Virus record (IMG/VR): IMGVR_UViG_3300042691_012580
Span: 1-22,659 of that record
Origin: a virus
Length of the DNA: 22,659 bases
Direction: 5' to 3' (one strand)
Position numbers and translations under genes: made by a program. Below the pieces are notes generated by a model. The model worked only from the letters and a program-made list of their open reading frames with translations, did not search any database and was not told where the DNA came from. Shown one piece after another: positions 2,502 through 14,867 of the stretch. Numbering within the stretch: the first letter of the stretch is position 1; each line of letters opens with the position of its first letter.

Positions 2502-2717
2502 TTATTCGACGAGCTTTAATTCTTCCGCCGCAACTAACCGCAGCCCTTGATGTAACGGCATTCCAAGAACCTTGATTTTTGCGCACAGCACCACAGAATT
2601 GTCCGACTTTGTGACCGGCTCATTGCCGACAATTTCACAGAGCTGCCCTTGCCATATCACAACATCGCGGCCTGATGCCCTTGCGGCTTGTTTCTGTTTT
2701 TCAGTTTGCCGTGCCAT
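2502..2717 (-). CDS. Hypothetical 71-residue protein downstream of the IbrA-like gene
   Basis: A basic, glutamine- and lysine-rich N-terminal helix (MARQTEKQKQAARASGRD) precedes a compact, beta-rich body (VVIWQGQLCEIVGNEPVTKSDNSVVLCAKIKVLGMPLHQGLRLVAAEELKLVE) that could be a small SH3-like barrel. I recognise no family. The start overlaps the end of the ibrA-like gene by 17 bases and has AAGGA about nine bases upstream, so it is probably the third gene of the same operon. A terminator follows. It might be an accessory subunit of the IbrA/IbrB pair; that is inference from position only. Confidence 0.65.
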   Translation of the reverse strand: MARQTEKQKQAARASGRDVVIWQGQLCEIVGNEPVTKSDNSVVLCAKIKVLGMPLHQGLRLVAAEELKLVE

Positions 2718-3927
2718 CGGTCAATTCCTTTGCCATTCGTCGTTTTGTTCTCAACTCTTTAAATGACTGATACGCATCAGAAAGCGGCTGCGATTGACCA
2801 AGGCCCTTGCACCAGTAGTCATTGCGAAGAATGACTTTGCACATTCGACGCCAACTTGGAGCCCAGCATTTCACTTCCAGTTCATGCGGCGACTCATCCG
2901 GAATCGTTGTGTACCCTCGCTGCTGCCAACCAGCAATAAACTTCTGAAACCTTGCCACGTAATGATCGCGAGTCTTTTTAGGCATCGTGCGAAGCAGGAG
3001 ATTACAAAACGACTTCCATGTGTGCCCGTCCGGCTTGCTAATCTTGTTGTAGCCAGTCATGTTGCCAGTTTCCTGAATATACAACGCCCCGGAATTCACG
3101 CCGTTGACTCGCACCACAAGCTTATACCACGTCATTGGTTCGAGGATATGATAAAGCCAAAGCCCCTTGCGCTGATCGTCGCCGTAGGGCTGGCAAAGTC
3201 GCTGTTGACTAAGCGGAACGCCCGCCTTGGTCATCTGGTCATAAACGCGGTTGTGATGCCGGTCTGGATTCTTGCCGTGATAAACCCAAATGTCCTCGAC
3301 TCGCCAATCATAAATCGGGTAGACGTTGTACAGCTTGCGAGCGACCTTTGTGGTCCACTTGTGACCGTTTGCCATCAGTCCGTCTTTGCGTGACACAATA
3401 GCCCTGTACCGATGCAATGACTCATCTGAGCGAATTCCGATAAAAGCCCCGGTCTTTTTCCCTTGCGAGTACCATTCGCCAAAAATCACCATCAATTCCT
3501 CGAACTCCATTTTCGGAGTGTAGAAATCGTACTGGCTTAAATCGGAAGCCAACGCTGGCTTTTCTCGTACCCAAATATCTTTCTTTTCTTCATCCCAGCA
3601 AATCCATCGCGGCTGGTAATTCGATACAGCATTTCTAAGCAGCAGTTCGCCACAGAACCAATGCAAATCAATGTGGTCTGCGTAGCATGTCACCATTTCT
3701 TCAATGTGCTTAATCGTGTCAGAATACTGTGCCTCAAGATCAATGATCAAAACGCCTACCTTTCGGTTCCGTCGCTTCGCTTCATCCATAACGAGATGAA
3801 ACATCACCGAGCTATCTTTGCCACCAGAGAACGAAATATACAGCCGCTCGAACATATCAAACGACTTGGCAATTCTCTCTCTGGCCTCATCAAGAACCGA
3901 CGTCAGCAAGTGCACTTTCTTAGTCAT
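2701..3927 (-). CDS. ibrA: IbrA-like PAPS-reductase-family protein (DUF3440 type)
   Basis: This 408-residue protein is an adenine-nucleotide alpha-hydrolase-fold enzyme of the phosphoadenosine-phosphosulfate reductase group. The PP-loop SGGKDSS sits at residues 34-40, followed by the expected alternating fold and an IGIRSDESLHRYRAI segment that matches the IbrA group, then KLYNVYPIYDWRVEDIWVY. The C-terminal half carries a DUF3440-like region with tryptophan-rich segments and scattered cysteines (C228, C276, C338, C344, C356 by approximate count). In Escherichia coli, IbrA and IbrB together activate prophage eib genes; the chemistry is unknown. True PAPS reductases reduce sulfate, but phage homologues probably act on another substrate such as a nucleotide or nucleic acid. 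Its ATG overlaps the ibrB-like stop by one base (TGATG), so the two are co-translated. Confidence 0.82.
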   Translation of the reverse strand: MTKKVHLLTSVLDEARERIAKSFDMFERLYISFSGGKDSSVMFHLVMDEAKRRNRKVGVLIIDLEAQYSDTIKHIEEMVTCYADHIDLHWFCGELLLRNAVSNYQPRWICWDEEKKDIWVREKPALASDLSQYDFYTPKMEFEELMVIFGEWYSQGKKTGAFIGIRSDESLHRYRAIVSRKDGLMANGHKWTTKVARKLYNVYPIYDWRVEDIWVYHGKNPDRHHNRVYDQMTKAGVPLSQQRLCQPYGDDQRKGLWLYHILEPMTWYKLVVRVNGVNSGALYIQETGNMTGYNKISKPDGHTWKSFCNLLLRTMPKKTRDHYVARFQKFIAGWQQRGYTTIPDESPHELEVKCWAPSWRRMCKVILRNDYWCKGLGQSQPLSDAYQSFKELRTKRRMAKELTDGTAN

Positions 3928-5051
3928 CAGTAAATCTCCACCTGTCGGCCGTATGACAATGCCTGATTCATGTCCACAGATTCCATGCCGCGATTATTCA
4001 GCCAACTGTTTAGCGCTGTTAACGCCGTTTCGTTTGCTTGCTCCTGCTGCTCAATAGTCAGCAAATTGAACCCGGAGCAAAACTGACTCGGAATACCACG
4101 GGCAACGCACATTGCCGCTTGACCAAGCCACGCGATTCGATTCATCGCGACGTTAGTCAAATAGTGCTCGCAAGAGTTTGGCCACTGCTCAAACACTCTG
4201 ACCAACGCTTCAGAAAACTGCTCCGAATCGGATAGAAACGCTGCGTACTCATGCTGGTACTGCTCCTTTGTTTTGCCTTCGACCGTCGAAGAATAAAACC
4301 CTGCCTTAACGCATTCCCATTTGTCATGAGTGTGAAACACCCTGTTTGGGTCTGACGTGTTTGCGGTCCTGACTGCTGCTCTCATTTCATCGGTGATTTC
4401 ATCCGTGAGTTCTACAAAATCATCAGTCGGATTGCTGTCCGCCGCTTCCCACGCCCGTGAGAAGTCCTGATCTGTAAACAAGTGCTCAAGGCCAGTGATT
4501 TGGCATAGCCTCAGAATTTCGTCCTCGTCCATGCCGAGTTCCTTCGCAATTCGCTTGTTAGTCCAGTTGCGGTTTTTCAGTTCCAGAACAATCTCAGACA
4601 TCGCGTCTACCTGATGCTTACCGCGTGCCCTGTTGTGGCGAATAGTTGACGCGATTCGATCATTCTTGCCCTGCTGCTCCTTCCGGATCTCGACCACTGG
4701 CAAGTATCCCTGAACACGCTGTGCAACCAGCTTTGACTCCTTGCCAACTCGCGATCGATGGAACCCGTCAACAACTTCGTGCGCGTCGTCTTTTGCCCAC
4801 GTAACAATCGGTTGCGTGTAGCCGTCATTGACGATAGACACTTCCAGCAACTCCATTTCTGGTGGTGCTACCTTGTTTGGATTGTATTCGTTAGCAGTGA
4901 CGCTGTCGGCCGCAATCCAGATCACACAATCGACTGGTTCATCTTTGAATGGACTGATCTCATGCAGTTGCCGCTTTACTGCGTTGATCGCTGCAACCTT
5001 TTCATGCAGCGGCATCTGCTCTATTTGCCGCAGCGCCTCGGAAATATCCAT
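3927..5051 (-). CDS. ibrB: IbrB-like ParB-fold protein with extra C-terminal phage domain
   Basis: Of the 374 residues, roughly 44-125 form a ParB/sulfiredoxin-like domain (TANEYNPNKVAPPEMELL...VNDGYTQPIVTW...VVDGFHRSRVG; nucleotide-pocket motif GFHRSR at 96-101). Residues 160-190 carry a ParB-type helix-turn-helix (WTNKRIAKELGMDEDEILRLCQITGL). IbrB proteins normally stop at around 200 residues. Here a separate domain follows from about 238 to 374 (HDKWECVKAGFY...SCEHYLTN...NRIAWLGQAAMC...GFNLLTIEQQEQAN), which I believe also occurs as a stand-alone phage protein but cannot name. The start is weak: only GGGGG lies before the ATG, directly after a terminator-like hairpin. The partner is the overlapping ibrA-like gene. 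DNA binding or CTP use is plausible but unproven. Confidence 0.8.
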   Translation of the reverse strand: MDISEALRQIEQMPLHEKVAAINAVKRQLHEISPFKDEPVDCVIWIAADSVTANEYNPNKVAPPEMELLEVSIVNDGYTQPIVTWAKDDAHEVVDGFHRSRVGKESKLVAQRVQGYLPVVEIRKEQQGKNDRIASTIRHNRARGKHQVDAMSEIVLELKNRNWTNKRIAKELGMDEDEILRLCQITGLEHLFTDQDFSRAWEAADSNPTDDFVELTDEITDEMRAAVRTANTSDPNRVFHTHDKWECVKAGFYSSTVEGKTKEQYQHEYAAFLSDSEQFSEALVRVFEQWPNSCEHYLTNVAMNRIAWLGQAAMCVARGIPSQFCSGFNLLTIEQQEQANETALTALNSWLNNRGMESVDMNQALSYGRQVEIY

Positions 5052-9370: not shown

Positions 9371-10278
9371 TATGGACCTGCCCACGATGTCACGCCCGGC
9401 AGGACTGTGAAATCGCCTTCCTCGTATTTGTCAATCTCAAGATAGATGACATTGTCTGGAGTAGGCACGTCGAGCTTCACTCCGGCCTCATCTAATGCCG
9501 CAGGCTCTGACGGCTCGCTTCCATCTGTGGCGATTATCGTCCTCAGTTCTCCAGCATACTTTTCTCGAAATCCTGCATTAAGCGGCCGCCCCTGATGCTT
9601 ATCACGTTCGTCGACTAAAAGCTCATAGGCGAATTCAAAATACTCCGTGTCGTTTCTCCGCTTTACCTCGCTCAGAAAGTTGCTCGGAAACACTACCCTG
9701 GCCATGTTGGTGCCGATGTACCAATTGCCGATCTGAATCGGGGAAATGTTCACGCGATTTCTCAGGGACAGAACCAACGACTCAACGCCTGAATCAATCG
9801 CCACGTTGACGGTGACACTGATTCCAATTGTGTTTTCCTCGATCGACTGCGCGACAGGATCTCCAGCCGTGTTCAAAATTGGCTTATCGTCACGATCACG
9901 GGTGATGGCTTTTTCTCGTGTTCCTCCGATTGGCTTAATGATTGGTAGGTCATTCGTCGGATCCTCATCGGTGGCCTGCGTGTCGTTCTTGGAGGCTTCG
10001 TCGCTCCAGTCCGTTTTGTAAAGGTAAACACCGCCCTCAATCTGATTGCAGGAAACGCCTCGACAGCTCACGAGCGGCCACAAAGAATTGTAGGCCGAAT
10101 AGTTTGTGCCTTCGATCGGAAGGCCAGCAAACAAACCGGCAATTTGCGATGGTGCCATGTCTGCGAGTGTTGCTGAAATAGTCGTCTTAAGCGTCCACTC
10201 CATTGTGGCTGTAAACACGCCCTTCTTTTTTTCTTCGTCCCATTTCGTGAGCGTAGAACTAATTGCAGTCGCTGCCAT
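9370..10278 (-). CDS. Distal tail or baseplate-region protein following the tape measure
   Basis: This 302-residue protein is coupled to the tape measure gene by a TAATG overlap. It is mixed alpha/beta: a beta-rich first half with TATMEWTLKTTISATLADM, a hydrophilic acidic stretch at 93-125 (SDEASKNDTQATDEDPTND), then a strand-rich region (IEENTIGISVTVNVAIDSGVESLVLSLRNRV) and a late segment FEFAYELLVDERDKHQGRPLNAGF. I do not recognise a named family. By position, immediately after the tape measure, it corresponds to the distal tail or first tip protein of siphoviruses; this is positional inference. Confidence 0.65.
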   Translation of the reverse strand: MAATAISSTLTKWDEEKKKGVFTATMEWTLKTTISATLADMAPSQIAGLFAGLPIEGTNYSAYNSLWPLVSCRGVSCNQIEGGVYLYKTDWSDEASKNDTQATDEDPTNDLPIIKPIGGTREKAITRDRDDKPILNTAGDPVAQSIEENTIGISVTVNVAIDSGVESLVLSLRNRVNISPIQIGNWYIGTNMARVVFPSNFLSEVKRRNDTEYFEFAYELLVDERDKHQGRPLNAGFREKYAGELRTIIATDGSEPSEPAALDEAGVKLDVPTPDNVIYLEIDKYEEGDFTVLPGVTSWAGP

Positions 10279-13007
10279 TACACCGCCCCCAGAATCATTG
10301 GTGATGGCTTGTTTGCGATTTTTGCCAAGTGCTTGTTAGTAGTCTTTTGCTCTGTCAGCTGCTTCTCTGGCGTCTTGTCTTTCTGCCCCGCATAGATTGC
10401 TTCTAAGGCAGCCTGAGACCCCTTCTCAAGATTGCTGACGAGAAAACTCGTTCGCTTGTTTCCAGCCGCAGCATCGCCTTGAGCGTTCATCGGACCTGAT
10501 GCCAAACTAGGGTCAATGGCGGGAAGTTCCGGGGCCGCAATGTTCAGTGCGGCTTGTGCTTCAAGTTCGAGTGCGTCAAAACTGTCTGCAAGCTGCGTTC
10601 CTAGTGCTTCTGTTTGCGTTTGTAGGCTTTGCTCAAGTTCAGTGAGTACACGCTCCGGAATGTCAGGCAAGGCCGCAACAGTAGATTCGAAACCTGTCAG
10701 GAGCGGAGTCCAGGCCAGTTCCAAATCTGCAGTTCCGCCGGATTTAATGAAGTCCCAAATGGCCCGCATTGCGTTGCCGATGTTGTCGGCAAGATTCGTG
10801 AAGATTGTGGCCGTGCCGCTGGCAATGTCGGTGAAAACATTGGTCCAGTTTTCCCCGAACCATGTCAGGTAAGCGGGAATTTTGTCGGTGATGAAATATG
10901 CGATGTCGTTGAACATTGTCACTGCACCGAGTGCGATGGTGGTCCAGACAAATTGAGTGATTGGTAGCAGGTTTTCAAAGTACCAGCGAAACTTCGTCAC
11001 CCATGACATCGTTGCCGCCAGCATACCACCGAACGTCGCTGTCGATGCTCCGAAAATGCCAGCAAACGCCGCCGATGCGACGGACCACAAGCCTACGAAC
11101 GCACCCCGGATCGTCATCATGACCTGCGTCGCAACGGGAGAAATTGCCAGCAGCCAGCCTTTCGATTTTTCGCTGATCTCCAACAGTCCAGTGAGGATCG
11201 GCTTAAATGCTGTCAGCCCAGCACCGCCAATTCCTCCAAGTGCCTGCATGAAGTTGTTTTTTATTCGCGACAGCATTCCTGACGTTGTGTTTCCCATCGT
11301 CTCTAGTGAACCGGCGTAGATTCCATTGCCTTCTGTCAGATGAGATAACGCCGCATCCATCTCCGTGATGCCGATTTGCCCGTCTGTGATCATCTTCGTG
11401 AGCGCTTCGCCGCTCTTGCCAGTTACGGCCGTCAATGCGTGGTAGATGTCGATGCCACGCTCTGCGAACTGGTTAATTTTATCTTGCTGGAAGGATCCGC
11501 GGTTCGCCCCCTGCTGATAAATGCGGGTAAGGTCTGAGAGTTCAGTTGATGTCGCGGCCGCAATCGTTGCGAGCTGGTCTGTCTTTCCAGCCAGATCGGC
11601 AGCAGCAACACCGGCTTTGAAAAGCAACCGACCTGAGTTCAGCACCTCTTCATTGTCGAACAGTCCCACAGACTTTGCCTGCTGCAAACTGGCGACAACT
11701 GCCTTGCCCTGCTCCATGTCTTTCAGCATCACGCCAAACACGGCCTGATTCTTTTCGGTGGCCATGGCCGTAGTGGCTGCCATGGCGACTGACGCTGCAC
11801 CGATCAACCCGATGGCATTAACGCCAAGTTTTACCGCCCCGGCTAAGCGGCCGCCAATTGAGCTTGCCACGCTCATGGCTGCACTGCCAGCAGATCGTGC
11901 CAACGTGGCAAACCCGGATGCCGCCTGCCCAGCCATCTTTCCGGCAAACATGACAGCCTGGCCAGTCAGCATAGCCGCTGTGCGTAAGGCTCGCATCGGA
12001 CTCGTGATTGCAATGACTGGCAACGATAACGCCTGAAACGCTGTCGTGGCGATTTTCACGCTTGTCGCTATACCCCGCATGGCAAATGCGCCGACCTTAC
12101 CAGTGGCTCCAAGTGCCAGCAGTCCACCGACAAGAATGCGTAGCTTTGGCGGAAGCATTCCGAGCCATTGCGTCATGACTTTCAGTGTGCCAATAAACCC
12201 CTTGAACACGAACCACACTTTGAACACCGTGATGGCAACGGATGTTGCTGCGGAAAACAGTGCTTTCATCGCCCCAGCAACTGCCATCAGCCCGGCAAAA
12301 AGCCATTTCACAGGCAGGAGCACAGTGTTAAGTGCCACTGTCATTGCCCTGAATACAAGGCCAGCCACCGCTCCTATCATCCGAATCGGAACCATCAGCA
12401 CGGCAAACGCAGACGCCAGCAAGTCGGCGAAAATCTGTGCTGCGTGGATTGAATGCACTAAGTGCAGCATTCCAGCGGACGCCGATCTGACGACGGATGA
12501 CAGCGCCCCAACCGTACCACCAACGACGCGAGCCCCGGACGCAATCGCCCGCATGGTAAATGCTGATTGCTGTGTCACCGTGGAGAGTCGCTGCAAGACT
12601 GGAGCCGCAACGCCAGCGGCCCCTCCGATCGAGGTTAGCCCGGATGTAGCAGAAGACGCTGATTTGTCGAGAACTCCAAAAGCTGTTCCTGCTGCTGTTG
12701 CGACCGCGCTAGCCTTTGACAGCGACGCCGCTACAAGATCCGCTGAGAATGCTGCGGAAATCATCGACGTTTCAACGATTTCGGCACCCGCTGCCACGGA
12801 GTCAAGCGTCGTGACCAGTTTCGTCGGTAATGTGCTGGACGATGCAAGCTGAGATGCGACACCGTTCAGTGTCGCGTAAGACGGCACAAGATTTGTCACG
12901 CCTACATGCACTCGATCAAGTTCTGACACAACCTGTCGCAGTCCGCGGAGTGATTCCTCATAAGCGACAGACAACCCGAAGTCGAGATCGTCAAGATTGC
13001 CGCTCAT
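10278..13007 (-). CDS. Tail tape measure protein
   Basis: This 909-residue protein sets tail length and helps DNA ejection. It is the longest gene and lies directly after the chaperone pair, as in lambda-like tails. Residues 90-415 are alanine/glycine/serine-rich with several hydrophobic helices. Residues 418-600 form the recognisable tape-measure domain (EKNQAVFGVMLKD...LFKAGVAAADLAGKTDQLATIAAATSTELSDLTRIYQQGANRGSFQQDKINQFAERGIDIYHALTA...GITEMDAALSHLT...SGMLSRIKNNF). More hydrophobic stretches at 615-720 could insert in the host membrane. At roughly 1.5 angstroms per residue, it would fit a tail of about 130 nm. It starts within the ATGA overlap with the chaperone frame. Confidence 0.88.
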   Translation of the reverse strand: MSGNLDDLDFGLSVAYEESLRGLRQVVSELDRVHVGVTNLVPSYATLNGVASQLASSSTLPTKLVTTLDSVAAGAEIVETSMISAAFSADLVAASLSKASAVATAAGTAFGVLDKSASSATSGLTSIGGAAGVAAPVLQRLSTVTQQSAFTMRAIASGARVVGGTVGALSSVVRSASAGMLHLVHSIHAAQIFADLLASAFAVLMVPIRMIGAVAGLVFRAMTVALNTVLLPVKWLFAGLMAVAGAMKALFSAATSVAITVFKVWFVFKGFIGTLKVMTQWLGMLPPKLRILVGGLLALGATGKVGAFAMRGIATSVKIATTAFQALSLPVIAITSPMRALRTAAMLTGQAVMFAGKMAGQAASGFATLARSAGSAAMSVASSIGGRLAGAVKLGVNAIGLIGAASVAMAATTAMATEKNQAVFGVMLKDMEQGKAVVASLQQAKSVGLFDNEEVLNSGRLLFKAGVAAADLAGKTDQLATIAAATSTELSDLTRIYQQGANRGSFQQDKINQFAERGIDIYHALTAVTGKSGEALTKMITDGQIGITEMDAALSHLTEGNGIYAGSLETMGNTTSGMLSRIKNNFMQALGGIGGAGLTAFKPILTGLLEISEKSKGWLLAISPVATQVMMTIRGAFVGLWSVASAAFAGIFGASTATFGGMLAATMSWVTKFRWYFENLLPITQFVWTTIALGAVTMFNDIAYFITDKIPAYLTWFGENWTNVFTDIASGTATIFTNLADNIGNAMRAIWDFIKSGGTADLELAWTPLLTGFESTVAALPDIPERVLTELEQSLQTQTEALGTQLADSFDALELEAQAALNIAAPELPAIDPSLASGPMNAQGDAAAGNKRTSFLVSNLEKGSQAALEAIYAGQKDKTPEKQLTEQKTTNKHLAKIANKPSPMILGAV

Positions 13008-13312
13008 GTTCCGCCTGCCATTCGTTGCTTGATTCTTTGCAGTATCTGTTGGGCCTCTGTTTGCTGTGGCCCGTCGTCAAATTTCAGCATGTACTTTTCT
13101 GGGCTATGGTCTTCAGGAGCCTCTGTGACTGAGCAGGAGACTTGCCAGTACGTTTGCATCGCTGCCCGGAGGTCATCTCGTTTCGTTCCGAATGGCCGAA
13201 TGCGGTAAAACGCCAGCCACCCAATCAGTTGATCTTCAGTTAGCTCCTCCCGCAGGTGATCCGGGCTGAGCGACTTGTCACCACCGACACCACACAAGCA
13301 AAGTTCATACAA
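13004..13312 (-). CDS. Tail assembly chaperone, T-like frame made by -1 frameshift
   Basis: This frame encodes the lambda gpT/DUF4035-like half of the chaperone: LSPDHLREELTEDQLIGWLAFYRIRPFGTKRDDLRA matches the family's WxAYYRxEPFG...RDDLRA pattern. It has no ATG start; the only listed initiator would be a TTG. The same frame is open upstream without a stop to the A_AAA_AAC heptamer at 13345-13339, so it is almost certainly expressed as a fusion with the preceding G-like protein. The fusion would have 233 residues and span 13704-13004. In lambda, gpG and gpGT bind the tape measure and recruit the tail tube protein. Its end overlaps the tape measure start as ATGA. Confidence 0.85.
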   Translation of the reverse strand: MYELCLCGVGGDKSLSPDHLREELTEDQLIGWLAFYRIRPFGTKRDDLRAAMQTYWQVSCSVTEAPEDHSPEKYMLKFDDGPQQTEAQQILQRIKQRMAGGT

Positions 13313-13335
13313 AACCTGCTCTGTAGTGTCCTCCC

Positions 13336-13704
13336 TCAGTTTTTTTCCGCGTTGTCCAACTCTTCGTCGATTTGCTGCTTCGTCTTGTTGTTTGCTCTGC
13401 CGATGGCGTCCATCAAATCGTTGAAAATCGGAGCACTTGCGTCCGCCAATGCTGCGGCGTCTTCCGACGTGAACGCTGGTGTTCCATCCTCATTGACAAC
13501 CGATAACGTGATCAGCTCAATTCTGGCCTTTTCACCTTCCGGGTTGTCTTTCGTCGCTGGCTTGCTCAGTCGTTTCAATACTCCCATGGGAAGTTGCTTT
13601 ACGCGAACCATCACGTCCGGATGATGCTTCAGCGCCAGTTCTTCGACTTTGCACGCGACAATCTGCCGTGCGTTGTGTGATCCAATGAAAACAGGTTCTG
13701 TCAT
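13336..13704 (-). CDS. Tail assembly chaperone, G-like
   Basis: This 122-residue acidic helical protein stands two genes after the tail tube and before the tape measure, where the G-type chaperone is expected. Its sequence has a short beta start (MTEPVFIGSHNARQIVACKVEELALKHHPDVMVRVKQLPMGVLKRLSKP), then SEDAAALADASAPIFNDLMDAIGRANNKTKQQIDEELDNAEKN. The last sense codons, GAA AAA AAC, immediately before TGA, form the slippery heptamer that sends a fraction of ribosomes into the T-like frame. The three-base gap to the upstream gene suggests coupling; the Shine-Dalgarno sequence is weak. Confidence 0.8.
   Translation of the reverse strand: MTEPVFIGSHNARQIVACKVEELALKHHPDVMVRVKQLPMGVLKRLSKPATKDNPEGEKARIELITLSVVNEDGTPAFTSEDAAALADASAPIFNDLMDAIGRANNKTKQQIDEELDNAEKN
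13339..13345 (-). promoter_or_regulatory. Programmed -1 ribosomal frameshift site A_AAA_AAC
   Basis: In the G-like frame the heptamer reads A AAA AAC, directly followed by TGA. It is a classic X_XXY_YYZ slippery sequence. Slippage by -1 enters the frame of the T-like ORF, which is open from the site to 13004. Gene order and function match the lambda G/GT system. Confidence 0.85.
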
Positions 13705-13707
13705 GGG

Positions 13708-14007
13708 TTACCCGTTAATGATGTTTCGGATCCTCTCAACCATTCGTTTTCGCACGATCGGCCGTCTGAGTCTCCATTGTTTCTTAAACCAGTCATGGGT
13801 GGGCGTTTCGGTGCCCGGGTACCGTTGTGGAAAACGCAGGCCAATTCGAGCCCGAGTGGATTTCACCCGAGCCCGAACAGCCTGACGTGTTTTGATGCGA
13901 CCTGGCGGCACGGCCGACCGCATTTCAGACGCCAAAAGCACCGCTTCAGATTCCACTGCTGCAGCGAGGTTTGCTTCCAGTGAATCGACAAACTCTTTGA
14001 ATGTCAC
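13708..14007 (-). CDS. Putative tail completion or neck protein (HK97 gp10-like, tentative)
   Basis: This 99-residue protein is strongly basic in its second half. The N-terminal helix TFKEFVDSLEANLAAAVESEAVLLASEMRSAVPP resembles the start of HK97 gp10-type proteins, which have a helix followed by an 'aP' motif. The rest (RIKTRQAVRARVKSTRARIGLRFPQRYPGTETPTHDWFKKQWRLRRPIVRKRMVERI) is arginine-rich with aromatic residues. In most siphoviruses this protein is encoded before the tail tube gene, not after it as here. The start overlaps the upstream gene as ATGA. The assignment is tentative. Confidence 0.6.
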   Translation of the reverse strand: MTFKEFVDSLEANLAAAVESEAVLLASEMRSAVPPGRIKTRQAVRARVKSTRARIGLRFPQRYPGTETPTHDWFKKQWRLRRPIVRKRMVERIRNIING

Positions 14008-14438
14008 GACGTTTCGCCCAGTGTCTCAGCAGGCTTTGCAAGCTGCTCGGCCTTTTGCTTCAATCCCTTGTGAGACTCGACTAAACCGAGTTCCACCGCA
14101 TAGGCCCGCTCCATCGCGGCAAGTTGCTTTTTATCCTTTGCTGATAACTGGTGCCCCTTGTCCGCCTGCTGAAGCAGTTTGATATCAGCCACGATCGCCT
14201 GACGGCCTTCAGATCCAAGATGCTCTAGCACCTTCTGAGCGCACTCCGCATCGTCGGGCAGCGCTACGCCTTTGACGACCAACCGCCAGCAATCCGGACA
14301 GTCGACCACCTCGCCAGCCTGGAGCGTGACAAATTCCGACGTGTCGTATGTCTTGCCCGCTGCAATGGCCGCCTTGCGTTCGGCATGTGAGAACAGCGGA
14401 TTCGGACACTGTGCGTCTTTGGTTCTGATGGCTTTCAT
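14004..14438 (-). CDS. Hypothetical protein downstream of the tail tube
   Basis: This encodes 144 residues. The first half has a cysteine (C11) and a CPDC pair near residue 48 (GEVVDCPDCWRLVVKG), possibly a small metal site; the second half is a long alpha-helical, charged region (AECAQKVLEHLGSEGRQAIVADIKLLQQADKGHQLSAKDKKQLAAMERAYAVELG) likely to form a coiled coil. No family is recognised. GAGG lies five bases before the ATG. Its place between the tail tube and the chaperones suggests a tail assembly role. Confidence 0.6.
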   Translation of the reverse strand: MKAIRTKDAQCPNPLFSHAERKAAIAAGKTYDTSEFVTLQAGEVVDCPDCWRLVVKGVALPDDAECAQKVLEHLGSEGRQAIVADIKLLQQADKGHQLSAKDKKQLAAMERAYAVELGLVESHKGLKQKAEQLAKPAETLGETS

Positions 14439-14447
14439 GATGCCTCG

Positions 14448-14867
14448 TTAACTTTCTGGCCAGTCGACCAGCTCGGTGATGCTTGCCTCAATCTTCCCCG
14501 CAATCACGCTGGCCGCTTTGATCGAAACAGGAAACTTTGTGATGATGTACTTCACGCTGACGGTTTTCCCGGAGCCGCCGAGCTTGACCGCTCCAACCAC
14601 CTCCGTTCCGTCGTTAAACGCCTTCACGACCTTTTGGTGTGTCGAGTCCGTTGGGTCATAGGCCAGCACGTCTGCACTGATTGACCCCTTACCGCGTACA
14701 CCAGTCGGAATCGGCGTTTCATATGTCATGTTCACGCCGAGAAGGTCGTGAAGCTTGTTCTCTCCAAGATCAATCTCGATGTTGTCGAGAAATGGGATCT
14801 CAGTGAGTGTCGAACTGATTGTGATTTGAAGCTCTGTCGCCAGAGTCTTCTGTGCTGTTGCGGGCAT
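14448..14867 (-). CDS. Major tail (tail tube) protein
   Basis: This 139-residue beta-rich protein has the signature of siphoviral tube subunits: NIEIDLGENKLHDLLGVNMTYETP, then GKGSISADVLAYDPTDSTHQKVVKAFNDGTEVVGAVKLGGSGKTVSVKYIITKFPVSIKAASVIAGKIEASITELVDW. The YDPTDSTHQ segment matches the conserved YDPxDxxxQ loop of tube proteins. It would polymerise as stacked hexamers around the tape measure. An unusually structured leader (14869-14979) precedes it, with AGGGG as ribosome binding site at the edge of a hairpin. Strong, separately tuned expression is expected because many copies are needed. Confidence 0.78.
   Translation of the reverse strand: MPATAQKTLATELQITISSTLTEIPFLDNIEIDLGENKLHDLLGVNMTYETPIPTGVRGKGSISADVLAYDPTDSTHQKVVKAFNDGTEVVGAVKLGGSGKTVSVKYIITKFPVSIKAASVIAGKIEASITELVDWPES

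Follow-up and report, generated by a model that had tools for sequence, protein, structure and literature searches.

Probable expression of a lambda-type G/GT tail assembly chaperone pair through programmed -1 ribosomal frameshifting in an uncultured siphovirus

Analysis of a stretch of 22,659 nucleotides (positions 1 to 22,659 of the IMG/VR record IMGVR_UViG_3300042691_012580, here called the window) indicates that the uncultured siphovirus from which it comes very probably expresses a lambda-type G/GT pair of tail assembly chaperones via programmed -1 ribosomal frameshifting. The original prediction, that a -1 frameshift joins the tail chaperone frames, is supported by the families of the two proteins, the gene order, the conservation of the slippery heptamer, the missing start codons of the second frame and a predicted hairpin 8 nt beyond the heptamer. 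Conserved G-T frameshifting is textbook knowledge (PMC5009743; PMC10885494), that of lambda, at about 30:1, being widely conserved (PMC5009743). The case described here is an ordinary, well-supported example of this known process; it leaves the understanding of the mechanism unchanged and adds an uncultured phage group, here with a hairpin next to the signal, to those with this textbook form of recoding. The features concerned are:

14448 to 14867, minus strand: putative major tail protein (tail tube), 139 aa, upstream of G, assigned from a weak match to the major tail protein family phrog_158 (E=0.028), from its position and from homologues in L011-L013
13336 to 13704, minus strand: G-like ORF for a tail assembly chaperone, 122 aa, with GAA AAA AAC TGA at its 3' end
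13339 to 13345, minus strand: slippery heptamer A_AAA_AAC, in the G frame
13336 to 13338, minus strand: TGA stop of the 0 frame, directly 3' of the heptamer
13331 to 13338, minus strand: 8-nt spacer TGAGGGAG between the heptamer and the hairpin, from the folding prediction
13286 to 13330, minus strand: predicted stimulatory hairpin of 45 nt (-20.5 kcal/mol), with 19 paired bases in its 5' arm and a loop of 5 nt
13004 to 13339, minus strand: T-like frame entered by the -1 shift, 111 aa plus stop
10278 to 13007, minus strand: tape measure protein of 909 aa, encoded by the gene right after T, with PF20155 (TMP_3) over the cut-off and a match to the tape measure family phrog_9959

Read from the window on the minus strand, the junction is ...GAC AAC GCG GAA AAA AAC TGA GGG AGG..., with A_AAA_AAC at the very end of the G frame (13345-13339) and the TGA next to it, as had been proposed; the span first given for this element, 13336-13348, had one base too many at its 5' end. 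Translation of both frames confirmed the predicted lengths: read from C13339, the -1 frame yields 111 residues and is open to 13007, which gives a predicted GT of 233 aa alongside a G of 122, and its TGA (13006-13004) shares two bases with the start codon of the tape-measure gene, as ATGA. The T frame is indeed the -1 frame, free of stops back to the heptamer and in fact open back to 13489, well 5' of it. Scanning this frame ahead of the conserved core of T revealed neither the ATG whose absence had been claimed nor a GTG, the only possible starts there being TTG 13312 and TTG 13297. The run of A at the junction (GG-AAAAAAA-C) comprises seven residues, and inspection by eye of the 10-14 nt 5' of the heptamer showed no obvious Shine-Dalgarno-like stimulator.

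The G-like protein matched two tail assembly chaperone families of the PHROG collection, phrog_344 (E=1.9e-10) and phrog_1749 (E=2.3e-6). Its match to Pfam Phage_TAC_13 (E=5e-5, 24.0 bits) lies under the curated cut-off of 28.8 bits, which tells somewhat against the frameshift reading, though the two PHROG families agree with each other. The T-like frame matched the Pfam family Phage_tail_T (PF06223) with E=2.8e-10 and 40.9 bits, over a cut-off of 25.9 bits, and phrog_337 with E=3.5e-8. The pair, with its second ORF in the -1 frame, follows the putative major tail gene and precedes the tape-measure gene. Further upstream, family matches identify genes for the capsid, for an S49 protease, for a portal of the lambda family and for a large terminase that carries a GpA nuclease domain. 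Two further small ORFs, of 99 and 144 aa (13708-14438, minus strand), separate G from the putative tail tube gene; neither has a convincing family match in PHROG or Pfam. In L011-L013 the 144-aa gene is again located before G, and the homologue of the 99-aa ORF is found ahead of the tail tube gene instead.

To assess conservation we counted as T homologues only those sequences that were matched over most of the PF06223 profile, which gave 11 besides the window, lambda included. Relatives of the window were found via a portal protein search and via T alignment; the Moraxella phages Mcat9 and Mcat32 came from a weak match in the phage collection and were confirmed as PF06223 members, and a PF06223 profile search of 392 genomes, from the phylum of a Planctomycetaceae MAG carrying a portal relative, gave the prophage-like loci L038-L042. 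Other searches were less productive: the window's T by itself had no match in the IMG/VR protein search, its G and T had none in the phage collection, and MCP as a query returned none. Two IMG/VR matches to G (L002 and L003) were discarded, the shared segment being only the short peptide NEDGTPAF in unrelated proteins. Alignment of related phages for the heptamer had been suggested as a check, and a canonical 0-frame heptamer was found exactly where the -1 shift enters T in all 11 of these homologues, which are not fully independent of one another, some being closely related and L012 and L013 near each other; from these two, though, the window has diverged to only 26% identity in G and 34% in T. 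The heptamers are:

L012 (IMGVR 3300027754_000640) and L013 (IMGVR 3300037487_000758): A_AAA_AAG
L030: A_AAA_AAC, then TAG
Moraxella phage Mcat9 (L031, KR093633): A_AAA_AAC, then TAA
Moraxella phage Mcat32 (L032, KR093656): A_AAA_AAC
L038: G_GGA_AAA
L039: A_AAA_AAC
L040: G_GGA_AAC, then TGA
L041: A_AAA_AAC, then TAG
L042: G_GGA_AAC
lambda: G_GGA_AAG

A stop directly after the heptamer is thus seen in five sequences: the window, L030, L040, L041 and Mcat9. Relatives devoid of the heptamer and with an independent start for T, which had been named as contrary evidence, number zero among the 11. This conservation is a stronger argument than the chance statistics. The plain 7-mer AAAAAAC is no rarity in the window (2 observed against 5.1 expected), and codon choice alone, with the residues E-K-N fixed, would produce A_AAA_AAC 15% of the time. 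Across the 5556 codons of 16 genes there are 7 in-frame X_XXY_YYZ sites, so that the chance of having one at most 10 codons from the G/T junction is about 1%.

The predicted hairpin, which the original note did not mention, begins exactly 8 nt after the heptamer, a spacing that is usual for -1 sites composed of a heptamer and a structure. The 50-nt window containing it has a z of -4.88 against 1000 dinucleotide shuffles; an equally extreme value is reached by 5 of 1885 windows along the whole strand, the hairpin being one of these, and its raw energy puts it 58th of 7537. A hairpin of like strength is predicted at the same spacing in Mcat9 (z -5.3), another at 6 nt in L042 (z -3.3) and a weaker one at 4 nt in Mcat32. 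The same 50-nt shuffle test gave values near random, with no significant hairpin, for L012, L013, L039, L041 and lambda. That a comparably significant hairpin is missing from some homologues is a point against the frameshift reading; since it is not shared by all of them, the predicted structure would be a stimulator in some members and not a defining part of the signal. One suggestion is a trade-off, with a weaker heptamer and strong hairpin in the window versus a stronger heptamer without hairpin in L012 and L013, but L030, L039 and L041 do not clearly follow it.

Of the alternatives, transcriptional slippage, by which RNA polymerase would add one A in the run so that some mRNAs hold G and T in a single frame, can draw on the seven A present at the junction, and one extra A would indeed create an identical GT junction. 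We nevertheless regard it as improbable: the corresponding run of L030 has only six A, in L038, L040, L042 and lambda the corresponding site is G_GGA_AAN, which contains no long run, and the arrangement of spacer and hairpin suits ribosomal shifting. Even less probable, in our estimation, is that T is a separate protein coupled to the end of G, with its own start at one of the two TTG codons that soon follow the G stop and with an incidental heptamer. In its favour, L012 and L013 have a T-frame ATG a few codons beyond the G stop, yet these too keep their heptamer, as do all other homologues. In L038 the first start is a GTG 69 bases past the start of the heptamer, and neither L030 nor L042 has a start codon of any kind between the heptamer and the T core. 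In the window, where only TTG codons are available, TTG 13312 lies at the apex of the predicted hairpin and TTG 13297 in its 3' arm. An assembly or sequencing error that split one gene within the homopolymer of a metagenomic contig can be practically dismissed, as the same split and the stop right after the heptamer recur in assemblies made independently of this one and in the Mcat9 genome as deposited.

Programmed frameshifting, the reading that we prefer, also places the window alongside known systems. It shares with lambda gpG/gpGT the order G, T, tape measure, the position of a heptamer near the end of G and in the G frame, the -1 direction of the shift and, for T, membership of the Pfam family that is named for lambda T. 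It differs in that lambda uses G_GGA_AAG in place of A_AAA_AAC, has 5 more codons between the heptamer and the stop, which is immediate in the window, and lacks, in the same 50-nt test, a significant hairpin such as the one 8 nt downstream in the window. The Moraxella phages are distant in sequence but have A_AAA_AAC at the junction, and Mcat9 in addition has EKN followed by an immediate stop and the hairpin 8 nt downstream. Public annotations record such G and T as unlinked genes; those deposited for Mcat9 and Mcat32 give two separate genes without a joined product, despite the A_AAA_AAC junction and the downstream hairpin. L012 and L013 are related to the window in their portal, capsid, tail and tape-measure genes (26% identity for G and 34% for T) and have the heptamer at the same place; they differ from it in the form A_AAA_AAG, in a 0-frame stop 5 codons later, in having no strong hairpin and in the T-frame ATG. 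The set of junctions could be used to calibrate frameshift predictors.

On this reading, the majority of ribosomes would terminate at the TGA after the heptamer and release G. A ribosome holding the AAA and AAC of A_AAA_AAC would be slowed by the downstream hairpin, both tRNAs could re-pair one base back, on AAA AAA, and a minority of ribosomes would carry on in the T frame to make GT, the ratio of the two products being set by the heptamer, the hairpin and the adjacent stop. In lambda, G attaches to the tape measure and T to the tail tube protein (PMC5009743); by analogy, the G part of the window's products may coat the tape measure protein, and their T part may recruit the tail tube protein. 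For the haloarchaeal viruses HCTV-1, -2 and -5, the listed g-t shift sites include A_AAA_AAC (PMC5009743). Against the frameshift reading it can be said that in E. coli, which may not be the host of this phage, this heptamer is much less slippery than A_AAA_AAG (PMC5009743). A more specific idea, which we put forward tentatively and consider rather unlikely, is that of a composite signal in a phage lineage perhaps of planctomycetes, in which A_AAA_AAC, a weak heptamer in bacteria, would be boosted by the hairpin at 8 nt and by a stop in the A site, the G:GT ratio then being determined by competition between termination and slipping. A planctomycete host is a guess, because the sole genome with a relative of the portal is the Planctomycetaceae MAG, at 38% identity over part of the protein.

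A different tail module is present in other loci that are related to the window through their portal and capsid; there the gene preceding the tape measure contains an in-frame T_TTT_TTC (L005:13209, L009:16903, L015:8304, L019:15767, L025:16886, and also L043, L045, L047 and L049). The -1 frame is open from this heptamer into the next small gene, and in L005-L025 the heptamer lies in a DFFP motif. Between L005 and L009 the third-position differences drop from 41/97 to 17/70 codons past T_TTT_TTC, and no such drop is seen between L015 and L019 (61/93 and 28/44); a long-overlap frameshift is possible for this module. The weak PF06223 matches L043-L067, which cover the profile only from about position 18 onward and were left out of the T homologues on this ground, probably represent a different tail module; of these, L043-L047 and L049 were inspected.

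Elsewhere in the window, the minus strand encodes a 92-aa CsrA homologue (794-1072; PF02599, 49 bits, over the cut-off), a phage-carried post-transcriptional regulator. It also encodes, at 2701-5051, a PAPS-reductase/DUF3440 protein of 408 aa right after a weakly ParB-like protein of 374 aa, a pair that occurs in various mobile elements.
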